A DNA stretch of 64,000 nt from Thermoproteota archaeon. GTDB lineage: Archaea > Thermoproteota > Thermoprotei_A > Sulfolobales > NBVN01. The translations under genes were made by a program, and so were the position numbers. The stretch's first letter is position 1. The number at the start of each line of letters is the position of its first letter. This document shows positions 41,553 through 59,076 of this stretch, piece after piece. Below the pieces are notes generated by a model that was given only the letters and a program-made list of their open reading frames with translations, was not told the DNA's origin and searched no databases. The DNA lies in the NCBI GenBank assembly GCA_030550455.1, contig JAUQPH010000004.1, positions 62,001-126,000 of the forward strand, written 5' to 3'.

Positions 41553-42119
41553 CCTGAACTAAGGTTAAAAAACAGAACCCTAGGCTCGAGTATCTAAGTG
41601 TTCCCATTAAACAAGCATGAATTAAGCCTACTGCTATCACTAACCAGCTTCCCTCACACTGAAGAAATGAGAGAAACTGAAGAAGACATAACGAGAGTTA
41701 GTCAGGTAGGTTAAGTGCTCCTCAGAGAGGTTCTTACCCGTTAATGACTTAGAGAGCCTTAACTTTGGTAGTAAATGGACTACTAGGACCTCTAGTAGGC
41801 ACCATGCCGGCTCTCGAGGAATACGAAAAGGTAGGACCCGATAAGGTAGGGATAGTCTTAGAGCTCCCTAAAATAATTAACTTAGGGGCAAACGAATACG
41901 TATTGAAACTAAAGCTTTACGAAGTATATGGAAGCTGAGGTGCTTAACGGCTGAAGCACCTCCAGTTTAGAGAGTACCAGCTTAATAGCTAAAGCCCCTT
42001 ATACTGGTAGGGAGATAATAATAGGGGAGCAGTATCACTCCCTCAAGGTAGATGAAGTAATTCGAAGGCTTAACACCAGTATAGAGCTTGGTTTACCGGA
42101 CGAAGAAGCCAAGAAGAGG
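41553..42119. other. Intergenic/5' region of the P-type ATPase
   Basis: Holds a possible small ORF (41765-41938) and, at 42012-42119, in-frame codons that belong to the N-terminus of the downstream ATPase but lack a standard start codon. TATA-like TTAATAGCTA lies near 41982-41991. Confidence 0.5.
41765..41938 (+). CDS. Possible small ORF of 57 aa
   Basis: TTG start, product begins MVVNGLLGPLVGTMPALEEY and continues with a charged, soluble-looking tail ending KLYEVYGS. Composition is protein-like but I recognise no family, and no ribosome-binding site stands out. It could be a relic of a larger gene. Confidence 0.25.
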   Translation: MVVNGLLGPLVGTMPALEEYEKVGPDKVGIVLELPKIINLGANEYVLKLKLYEVYGS

Positions 42120-55971: not shown

Positions 55972-58956
55972 TTAAGAAGGTTGCCTAAGAGGTAACTTCT
56001 TCACCCCGATTTTAACTACGAATCCCTCGATATCCCAGGTCTTTACGTAGGAACCTTCCTCGGGGGGTTCTCTAGCAAGCTTTACGGCTCTAACTTCTCT
56101 AGATATGTAGTCACCGAGGGAGCTTAGTGCTGCTAGGATGTCTTCAGAGTCCGAATCTATAGTGACATCTATGAATTCTGAGACATCAAGACCCATCTCT
56201 TTTCTCATGACCTGTATTCTGCGCACGAGCTCCCGCGCTAACGCCTCCATATAGAGATCTTTATCTACACTCCTGGGTAGGCAGACCGTGATTCCTTCCT
56301 CATGGATCGACTCGAAGTCGCTCTCAGAGCATGCTAAAGCATCCACTGCCGTTTTAACAGTTTTAACGTTAGACAGCCTGGATATTACGTCCCTCAATGG
56401 CTCTATACTGCGCAGAACTTTATCATTCGATACTATAATGGCCTCCCGCATCGGCCACCTAATCTTTATTCCAAGCTTGTTTCTTAGTGAGGCCAGTAGC
56501 TCTACTGCCTTAAGAGCAGTTTTAAAGCTCTCCTCTAGTTCCGGTCTTATTCTGGCTTCATCTACCTCCTCGATCTTAGTTAAGTGAACACTCTCAGACT
56601 CCTCGGGTTCGAAGTACTTTATGAAGCGTATCCAGAGGGCTTCCGCTATATGTGGGACAGCTGGAGATAACAGCTTAACTAACCTCTTCAGCACGTAGTA
56701 GAGAGTAGCGTAGACTGCGAATCTGTCGTCACCTACTTCACTCCAAACTCTCGGTCTGACTAGCTTTAGGTACGTCCTGCTTAAGTCCTCGACGGTAAAG
56801 TCTATTAAGACCTGAACCGCCTTATGGATCTCGTATTTAGACATCAACTCAACAAACTCTTTAGTGGTCGTGTTTATCCTCGAGAGTATCCACTCGTCTT
56901 CGACGGACAGTTTACTGGAGTAGCTCGTGAGGTCATGTTTCTTAGGAGAGAACTTGTCTAAGTCCATATACATAGCAGCAAACCTAAAGACGTTCCACAG
57001 TATGTTCAGTATGCTAGTTGAAACCTTTCTGACTTCATCAGGGTCGAACATGAAGGACTCTCCGGGTGGATACCTAGAGAGTAGGTAGAGCCTCATCGGG
57101 TCAACTCCGAACCTCTTGACCGCTTCTTCAGCATATACTACGTTACCTAAGTGCTTAGACATCTTCCTCCCGAATTTATCGAGGACGTGACCTTGTATGA
57201 GGATCTGCTTGTACGGAGCCACGCCTTTATCTATAACCGATGTAGCTAGAAGCGAGTAGAACCACCCTCTGGTCTGGTCGACGGCCTCAGTTATGAAAGT
57301 GTACGGATATAGCTTATCGAAAAGATCCTTATTCCTCAACCCATCGACAGACGCTATCCATGCAACACCGCTGTCTATCCAGACGTCAACAACGAACGGC
57401 TCTCTAACCCATTTAGAGCAGTCCTGCGTTTTGAGTTCAACCATATCAATCCACGGTCTGTGAACAAGTCTATCGTCATCTACTTCAGGGAGAACTGAAG
57501 CGCGGCTCTTTAATTCCTCAATACTACCGATTACGAGTATCTTGCTAGGGTCTTCAGAACACCTCCAAATAGGTAGCGGTGTACCCCATATTCGAGACCT
57601 AGATATAGTCCAATCTTTAACGTTCGCTAGCCATGACTCAAACCGACTTCTGTGCACCTTAGGATAGATCTCGACTGAGCTGAGAGCTTCTAAGAGCTTC
57701 TCTCTGAGGTGACTCATGGCTATAAACCACTGTCTATCTGCTCTATACACTAGTGGAGTACCACACCTCCAGCAGTGTGGGTATCTATGGACAACTTTTC
57801 CCGATTTAACTAAGAGGTTCTTCTTCTCGAGGACTTCGATAACGAGCCTAGATGCCCTGTCTACCGTTAAACCACTAAACACTCCAGCTCGGTCTTCAAA
57901 TACCCCACTAGAGTTGACTGTACTAGTAATCGGTAGTCCGTACTTAACTCCAAGCTCGAAGTCCTCCGGACCGTGACCAGGAGCTATGTGTACGAGCCCG
58001 GTGCCCTCCTCAAGACTGACGAATTCTGCGTCTAGGACTATGTGGCTACTTGCGTGCTCTGCGTGGAGGGGCACCTCCTCTAGCAGTGGGTGCTCATAAG
58101 CTAAACCTCGTAGTTCGACCCCCTTTCTGGTATCAGAGCAGCTCCAATTATCAAGTCCAAGTTCTCTAGCTACTTTATCTGCTAACGCTTTAGCTACGTA
58201 TAGCTTCTCACTTCTTATATCCAGCAGGCAGTACTCTGCATCAGGGTGGACGGCGACAGCCTCATTATCAACTAGAGTCCACGGGGTGGTTGTCCATATG
58301 AGTAGGTACTCCCCGTCTTTACCTTTAATCTTGAACTTAACGTACACTGAAGGAGATTCTTTCTCTTCGTAACCCATATCAACTTCTGCGTCGCTTAGAG
58401 CTGTCTCACACCTAGGACAGAAAGGAAGCACCCTATATCCTTCATAGAGTAGTCCCTTCTCCCAAGCTCTTTTTATTATGTACCACACGTACTCTACGTA
58501 CCTACTTCTTCTAGTTTCATAAGCGTTGTCTAAGTCTAGCCATAGCCCAAGGAGCTCGGTTGCGTATAGTTTCCAGTATGTAAGGTAGTAGTCAACGAGC
58601 TTGTTGCACTCTCCAACAAACCTCTCGAGTCCCACCTTCTCGGAAATATCTCGCTTGGTCTTTACACCTAGCTTCTTCTCTACTTCTACCTCAACCGGCA
58701 GACCCTGCTCGTCCCACCCACCTTGAGCCCAGACATCGTAGCCTAAGACCTTGTGATACCTCAGCACGAAGTCCTTATACACTCTCCCCCTTAGGTGACC
58801 GACGTGTGGATATCCATTAGCAGTAGGAGGTCCCTCGAGGAAGCTAAATAGGTCTCTTCCGGAAAGAGCGCGCCACTTACTTGGTATATTCCTCTCCTTC
58901 CAGTACTTCCTTACCTCATCCTCTATCTTTCTTACGTCCAGCGGAGGTAAATCAAT
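55972..58956 (-). CDS. ileS: Isoleucyl-tRNA synthetase (ATT start proposed)
   Basis: About 994 residues. The HIGH motif is YPHVGHLRGRVYKDF; the CP1 editing domain has TTPWTLVDNEAVAVHPD; KMSKS is KFGRKMSKHLGNV; then the anticodon-binding domain. The first standard start, GTG at 58782, lies after the HIGH motif, so it cannot be right. In frame upstream there is only ATT at 58956 (and CTG at 58941) before a stop at 58966-58968. ATT gives AIDLPPLDVRKIEDEVRKYW, with DVRKIEDEVRKYWKE matching the family N-terminus. Charges tRNA-Ile in the cytoplasm. Confidence 0.93.
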   Translation of the reverse strand: MDLPPLDVRKIEDEVRKYWKERNIPSKWRALSGRDLFSFLEGPPTANGYPHVGHLRGRVYKDFVLRYHKVLGYDVWAQGGWDEQGLPVEVEVEKKLGVKTKRDISEKVGLERFVGECNKLVDYYLTYWKLYATELLGLWLDLDNAYETRRSRYVEYVWYIIKRAWEKGLLYEGYRVLPFCPRCETALSDAEVDMGYEEKESPSVYVKFKIKGKDGEYLLIWTTTPWTLVDNEAVAVHPDAEYCLLDIRSEKLYVAKALADKVARELGLDNWSCSDTRKGVELRGLAYEHPLLEEVPLHAEHASSHIVLDAEFVSLEEGTGLVHIAPGHGPEDFELGVKYGLPITSTVNSSGVFEDRAGVFSGLTVDRASRLVIEVLEKKNLLVKSGKVVHRYPHCWRCGTPLVYRADRQWFIAMSHLREKLLEALSSVEIYPKVHRSRFESWLANVKDWTISRSRIWGTPLPIWRCSEDPSKILVIGSIEELKSRASVLPEVDDDRLVHRPWIDMVELKTQDCSKWVREPFVVDVWIDSGVAWIASVDGLRNKDLFDKLYPYTFITEAVDQTRGWFYSLLATSVIDKGVAPYKQILIQGHVLDKFGRKMSKHLGNVVYAEEAVKRFGVDPMRLYLLSRYPPGESFMFDPDEVRKVSTSILNILWNVFRFAAMYMDLDKFSPKKHDLTSYSSKLSVEDEWILSRINTTTKEFVELMSKYEIHKAVQVLIDFTVEDLSRTYLKLVRPRVWSEVGDDRFAVYATLYYVLKRLVKLLSPAVPHIAEALWIRFIKYFEPEESESVHLTKIEEVDEARIRPELEESFKTALKAVELLASLRNKLGIKIRWPMREAIIVSNDKVLRSIEPLRDVISRLSNVKTVKTAVDALACSESDFESIHEEGITVCLPRSVDKDLYMEALARELVRRIQVMRKEMGLDVSEFIDVTIDSDSEDILAALSSLGDYISREVRAVKLAREPPEEGSYVKTWDIEGFVVKIGVKKLPLRQPS

Positions 58957-59076
58957 AGCAGACCCCTACAAAGCTAGATAGATTAACCTAATAAGCTCCT
59001 AGAAAGGGAGCTCGATTTCGTTAGCTATGTAACTGAGTTAAATTGAGCCCGATATATGGTAGTTCGGTGATGGATA

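Follow-up and report, generated by a model that had tools for sequence, protein, structure and literature searches.

An archaeal ileS gene that probably starts at AUU, with signs of a conserved weak start in related archaea

Where does translation of an essential gene begin when its reading frame offers no ATG, GTG or TTG ahead of the catalytic motif? The question is raised by the isoleucyl-tRNA synthetase gene (ileS) of a Thermoproteota archaeon (Sulfolobales; NBVN01), which lies on the minus strand of the window, i.e., the whole stretch of 64,000 nucleotides of contig JAUQPH010000004.1 that was analysed here. The following features are concerned:

55972..58956, minus strand: ileS, isoleucyl-tRNA synthetase, counted from ATT with the stop included (994 codons)
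58966..58968, minus strand: in-frame TAG on the 5' side of the proposed start, read in the sequence
58954..58956, minus strand: ATT, the proposed start codon
58939..58941, minus strand: CTG, the rival start codon
58795..58806, minus strand: HVGH, the HIGH motif, read in the sequence
58780..58782, minus strand: GTG, the first standard start in frame according to the ORF list, downstream of HIGH and not usable

Read on the minus strand from 58968, the frame runs TAG GGG TCT GCT ATT (58956-58954) GAT TTA CCT CCG CTG (58941-58939) GAC GTA AGA AAG ATA GAG, continues with EGPPTANGYPHVGHLRGR and then reaches the GTG at 58782; between the TAG (58968-58966) and this GTG, a distance of 61 codons, no ATG, GTG or TTG was found in frame. 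The longest ORF listed under translation table 11 begins at the same GTG, past PHVGHLRG, and would lose the HIGH motif, and the in-frame standard codon that precedes the conserved N-terminus of an ordinary table 11 gene is missing. The first-pass annotation, which had described a HIGH motif in frame with no standard codon upstream back to the stop, is thus borne out by both the sequence and the ORF list, and it places the stop, ATT and CTG correctly. The bare gap is not the evidence, because 61 random ileS codons would lack all three standard starts with a chance of about 6%; the evidence is conservation. The identity of the product is clear: counted from ATT as its first residue, the protein scores 851.7 bits against NCBIfam TIGR00392 (cut-off 621), and it carries the HIGH motif and the Pfam class I synthetase and anticodon-binding domains (PF00133, PF08264) of an isoleucyl-tRNA synthetase. 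Residue 7 aligns to position 7 of the TIGR00392 profile, so reading from ATT retains the whole family N-terminus. A protein search returned the sequence itself at 100% and members of the genus at about 75%; a search of the plasmid collection gave no match.

The genus, which is represented by draft assemblies only, comprised the genome of the window (G000) and six genomes from a whole-genome search (G001-G006; 73-76% protein identity). All seven keep ATT GAT TT(A/G) CCT CC(G/A) CTG at the 5' end of ileS, with the six codons from ATT on invariant at the protein level. Four of these six show the identical codon in all seven genomes, versus 63 of the 513 invariant non-Met, non-Trp columns overall, and ATT is the rarest Ile codon in the seven genes (43 of 328 Ile codons). 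The three codons before ATT vary (GGG/GGA, TCT/CCC, GCT/ACT), as non-coding sequence would. A stop lies four codons upstream of ATT in the window, G005 and G006 (TAG at the same place in each), and in G001, G002 and G003 no standard codon occurs between the upstream stop and ATT. A relative with a normal start at this place had been named as the finding that would speak against a non-standard start; at the ATT column itself none of the seven genomes has ATG, GTG or TTG, and standard codons do occur nearby. G004 has a GTG 10 codons upstream of ATT, downstream of the TATA-like box but ahead of the predicted mRNA start, and a TTG follows two codons after ATT in G003, G005 and G006 (TTA in the other four), which cannot be the common start because it is present in these three only.

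AUU at 58956 is the best candidate and the simplest start, and the conservation pattern makes it the probable start of the window's ileS. Both ATT 58956 and CTG 58941 had been proposed as choices from the sequence; both survive every test run, with ATT favoured. Translation from CUG 58941, five codons downstream, is improbable. This CTG is as invariant within the genus as ATT, which counts against the AUU start (the same codon stands in 7 of 7 genomes, and only 2 of the 68 invariant Leu columns keep one codon throughout), and CTG serves as a start elsewhere in the genus; but the column reads TTG, ATG, TTA or Phe TTT in other genera, no Shine-Dalgarno element stands in front of it, and the five residues before it, I-D-L-P-P, never vary although their codons change synonymously (TTA/TTG, CCG/CCA), a pattern expected of translated sequence. 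That a sequencing or assembly error conceals an ordinary start is scarcely credible. The source assembly is a draft in 17 contigs, but the same bases recur in seven genomes, and ileS genes without a standard start are also found in single-contig genomes of other families. An error restoring ATG, GTG or TTG, which the first-pass annotation had allowed for, is refuted by this conservation across the genus.

The region upstream of the proposed start contains two further features:

58989..58994, minus strand: TTATTA, TATA-like box of ileS, 32 nt from the end of the box to ATT
58962..58966, minus strand: GGGGT, weak Shine-Dalgarno-like element, 5 nt before ATT (GGTG here in other genera)

In 7 of 7 genus genomes, 31-33 nt separate the end of the TATA-like hexamer from ATT. 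In archaea the TATA box usually precedes the mRNA start by about 25 nt, and in leaderless or short-leader mRNAs the start codon follows within about 10 nt; on this basis the 5' end of the ileS mRNA should lie near 58962-58966, about 7-10 nt upstream of ATT, and the spacing of the box fits a leader of 7-10 nt. GGGGT could pair with the ACCUC in the 16S tail if one G-U pair is allowed (the 16S 3' end, GGATCACCTCCTAG, was read from L117). This match is weak and may sit at the very end of the mRNA, which is a point against the AUU start. A hairpin hiding the Shine-Dalgarno element is not conserved. The same geometry bears on the very improbable explanation that an upstream standard start is joined to ileS via a bulge-helix-bulge mRNA intron or a frameshift. 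Pre-mRNA introns, though few, are known in archaea, and an out-of-frame TTG overlaps ATT (58955-58953). Against this, the position of the TATA-like box (31-33 nt upstream of ATT) predicts an mRNA that begins about 7-10 nt before ATT, too close to it for an exon or start to fit in between; the frame of the overlapping TTG stops after 7 codons, and this TTG is missing from L011, L016, L019, L023 and L035. No conserved fold spans the region, and the sequence gives no sign of a transcribed upstream exon with a start or of a splice fold.

With AUU as the start, transcription from the TATA-like box (58994-58989) would give an ileS mRNA beginning about 7-10 nt before AUU, its 5' end at or inside GGGGT, an element able to pair weakly with the 16S tail. 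Initiator Met-tRNA would be placed on AUU with a mismatch at the third base only, and the N-terminus of IleRS would then read M-D-L-P-P-L. A start codon without third-position G may be retained in ileS across the order as a deliberately weak, perhaps regulated start. An archaeal review lists AUG, GUG and UUG as the sole start codons (PMC7531240). In S. solfataricus aIF1 has been reported to favour discrimination against non-canonical starts (PMC6237735, PMC8211752), so that a weak ileS start is a plausible control point. The closest parallel by start codon is bacterial infC (IF3), whose conserved AUU is a weak start through which the gene is controlled (Butler 1987 and Brombach 1987, cited in PMC9845219). 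As in infC, a gene of the translation apparatus keeps AUU at its start position among close relatives (7 of 7 genus genomes). Unlike infC, ileS encodes an aminoacyl-tRNA synthetase and not the factor that discriminates against AUU, and it is archaeal with a very short predicted leader; any autocontrol of ileS through its AUU would be hypothetical.

In most other genera of the family the 5' end of ileS reads GTG TCN NNT ATT GAT TTG. An in-frame GTG thus stands three codons upstream of the ATT column as a possible leaderless start, and this counts against AUU. It is absent from L016, L019 and L023, in which the GTG is one base out of the ileS frame: L016 reads AGGTGAGGAAGC ATT (AGGTGA-GGAAGC-ATT), and L019 and L023 read AGGTGCGGAACC ATC. 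The ATT column is occupied by ATT, ATC or ATA in these other genera (ATA in L035). Because the GTG is out of frame in L016, L019 and L023, the shared feature is a GGTG-type element, complementary to the 16S tail (GGATCACCTCC), followed 6-7 nt later by an AUH triplet. With regard to a normal start in relatives, the comparison outside the genus leaves a mixed but mostly favourable result overall, the in-frame GTG of most genera being the unfavourable part. As a separate observation, L025, L027 and L028 have an AUG or GUG frame before ileS that encodes a short, leader-peptide-like peptide with two Ile codons (e.g., ATG TCC ATT ATC ... or ATG GAT ATT ATT ...). In a more distant Thermoproteaceae MAG (L037, JAJHRB010000014.1), no standard start for ileS occurs from the upstream stop to EGPPT, and an out-of-frame ATG GGG ATC TGA is followed by CTG AAG.

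An order-wide search printed the sequence after GGTG upstream of ileS (genomes without a GGTG match there are not in the count, and most ileS genes of families f7 and f11 were read over 80 nt only). GGTG-N5/6-ATTATYY was present in 51 of the 53 GGTG-bearing ileS starts, from families f2, f3, f7, f10 and f11 with Sulfolobaceae included; the two exceptions, G162 and G185, begin ordinarily with ATG or GTG. Read in frame with ileS, the element is TTA TCY (45) or TTA TTC (6), so that UUA stands in frame in the 51 genomes, in which a standard start is often absent. The families f2 and f3 (except G154) carry an in-frame GTG three codons upstream; in f7, f10 and f11 the GTG is out of frame. In 13 genomes from four families an in-frame TGA occurs two to three codons before TTA with no standard codon after it within the printed stretch. 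The Sulfolobaceae genomes G205 and G197 both read TGA GTT GAA TTA TCT, and ileS of G197 has no ATG, GTG or TTG over 69 codons, past HIGH. G041 (f2; L030) has TTG at the TTA column, and the ileS starts of families f4, f5, f6, f8 and f9 are mostly ordinary. In a phylum-wide search the ATTATYY element was found in 23 of 398 genomes, all from the same order. The order contains two types of IleRS, of about 990 codons (f1, f2, f3, f7 and others) and about 1060 codons (f4, f5, f9, f11 and others), and the odd start was found in both.

In many related archaea ileS likewise has no normal start at this position. The pattern suggests that a weak start has been conserved, possibly for regulation, and two readings of the sequences compete. 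The start column may be UUA in five families and AUH in the family of the window, in each case a codon without third-position G that is kept weak; this needs no shift, and the TTG of G041 agrees with it. Alternatively, and in our view doubtfully, ileS would initiate at AUU in all these families, and outside the family of the window a +1 shift would feed ribosomes into the ileS frame. The AUU of Sulfolobaceae and relatives would then lie one base out of frame and be followed by an Ile codon (AUY), the shift being favoured when charged tRNA-Ile is scarce; in the window's family AUU would already be in frame and no shift would be needed. An order-wide isoleucine-sensing start of this kind (AUU, an Ile codon and a +1 shift dependent on charged tRNA-Ile), by which IleRS would control its own synthesis, is a tentative proposal that we think rather unlikely. 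The shift is consistent with the triplet after ATT, which is ATC (45) or ATT (6) and so encodes Ile in every case when read with AUU, but Ser or Phe in the ileS frame, and with the spacing of AUU, which follows a GGTG-type element by 5-7 nt in both groups; it also explains the nucleotide constraint better than a UUA/AUH start column does, since the second triplet is only ATC or ATT and the A before TTA never changes. However, the in-frame UUA at the same Shine-Dalgarno distance accounts for the reading without a shift, and G041 has TTG in place of this UUA. In most Sulfolobaceae the AUU frame is interrupted by a stop codon ahead of ATT, Met-tRNAi slipping from AUU to UUA would pair poorly, and the codon after ATT in the window is GAT, not Ile. 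The constant pyrimidine at the seventh base of ATTATYY is explained by neither reading. The ileS geometry of Sulfolobaceae, f7 and f10 fits a prfB-type arrangement, and ileS of Sulfolobaceae and f7 resembles the autoregulatory +1 frameshift of prfB in having an out-of-frame start led by a Shine-Dalgarno element and the main frame at +1. It differs from prfB in that the window's AUU is in frame and needs no programmed shift, and in that the shift in the other families is putative.

Near-cognate starts in other genes were sought by comparing G000 (about 850 kb) with G003 (660 kb), which gave 276 ortholog pairs at ≥45% identity; a gene was flagged if at least six conserved codons preceded the first ATG, GTG or TTG. 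The 25 genes flagged in G000 and 20 in G003 include several clear cases and many doubtful or spurious ones (shadow frames, masked ends, conserved flanks). A NusA-like gene (TIGR01952) has a CTG start in 7 of 7 genus genomes, at a near-constant distance from a GAGGTG-type element, with a single codon (GTT or GCT) between the upstream stop and CTG in G000 and G001; its start column is TTG, GTG or ATG in nearly all other family genomes read (L227-L255). The start column of purQ (TIGR01737; L216-L226) is ATT in G000, ATG in G001, G004 and G012, GTG in G007, G010 and G018, and CTG in G003, G009 and G019. CTG stands opposite the ATG of the sibling at G000 C14:167468-169117 and 127510-127998, and G000:C14:143697-148328, outside the window, has an ATT start after GGTGATGATGT (GTG in the sibling G003; its product of about 1540 residues has an apparent signal peptide). 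Within the window, a P-type cation ATPase gene (PF00122, PF00689; 41955-44687, plus strand) has no ATG, GTG or TTG for 55 codons after the stop, and an ATA near 42021 aligns with the ATG of G003. A further case is ACG opposite GTG in G003. ATG, GTG and TTG dominate a count of Shine-Dalgarno-anchored codons, with CTG and ATT only mildly enriched, so near-cognate starts are a minority (by our estimate a few per cent). The NusA-like gene, purQ and the further cases imply that near-cognate starts are tolerated in the genus, and probably in the family, to which the AUU of ileS belongs.

Relaxed start-codon use is familiar from the same phylum, e.g., GUG and UUG initiation in Aeropyrum pernix, in which TTG makes up 52% of starts (PMC5911459). 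Those starts all keep the third-position G, in contrast to AUU, CUG and probably AUA and ACG here, and perhaps UUA in other families. Belinky et al. 2017 counted 2 CUG and 1 AUU among 61,358 ancestral AUG starts of annotated genes (PMC5622118); the type of substitution is the same, against several clear cases in 276 ortholog pairs here. No report of non-standard ileS starts in archaea was found in the open-access literature. If the interpretation is true, an essential gene lacks third-position G in its start codon across at least six families of the order, the tractable Sulfolobus included, which would extend the natural repertoire of initiation codons by AUU, perhaps UUA, and point to a new control of isoleucyl-tRNA synthetase. 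Gene callers restricted to ATG, GTG and TTG would truncate such genes, here removing the active site of IleRS, and would misplace the N-termini of several other genes in the genus.

A control pair in Sulfolobaceae (G205/G197, 65 ortholog pairs; the pair G205/G059, S. acidocaldarius-like, was dropped as too similar at 98%) yielded very few flagged genes, with ileS the strongest case. In the Saccharolobus-like G197 a KsgA/Dim1-like gene (ortholog of sa|C1|-|92086) also has no standard start for about 21 conserved codons.
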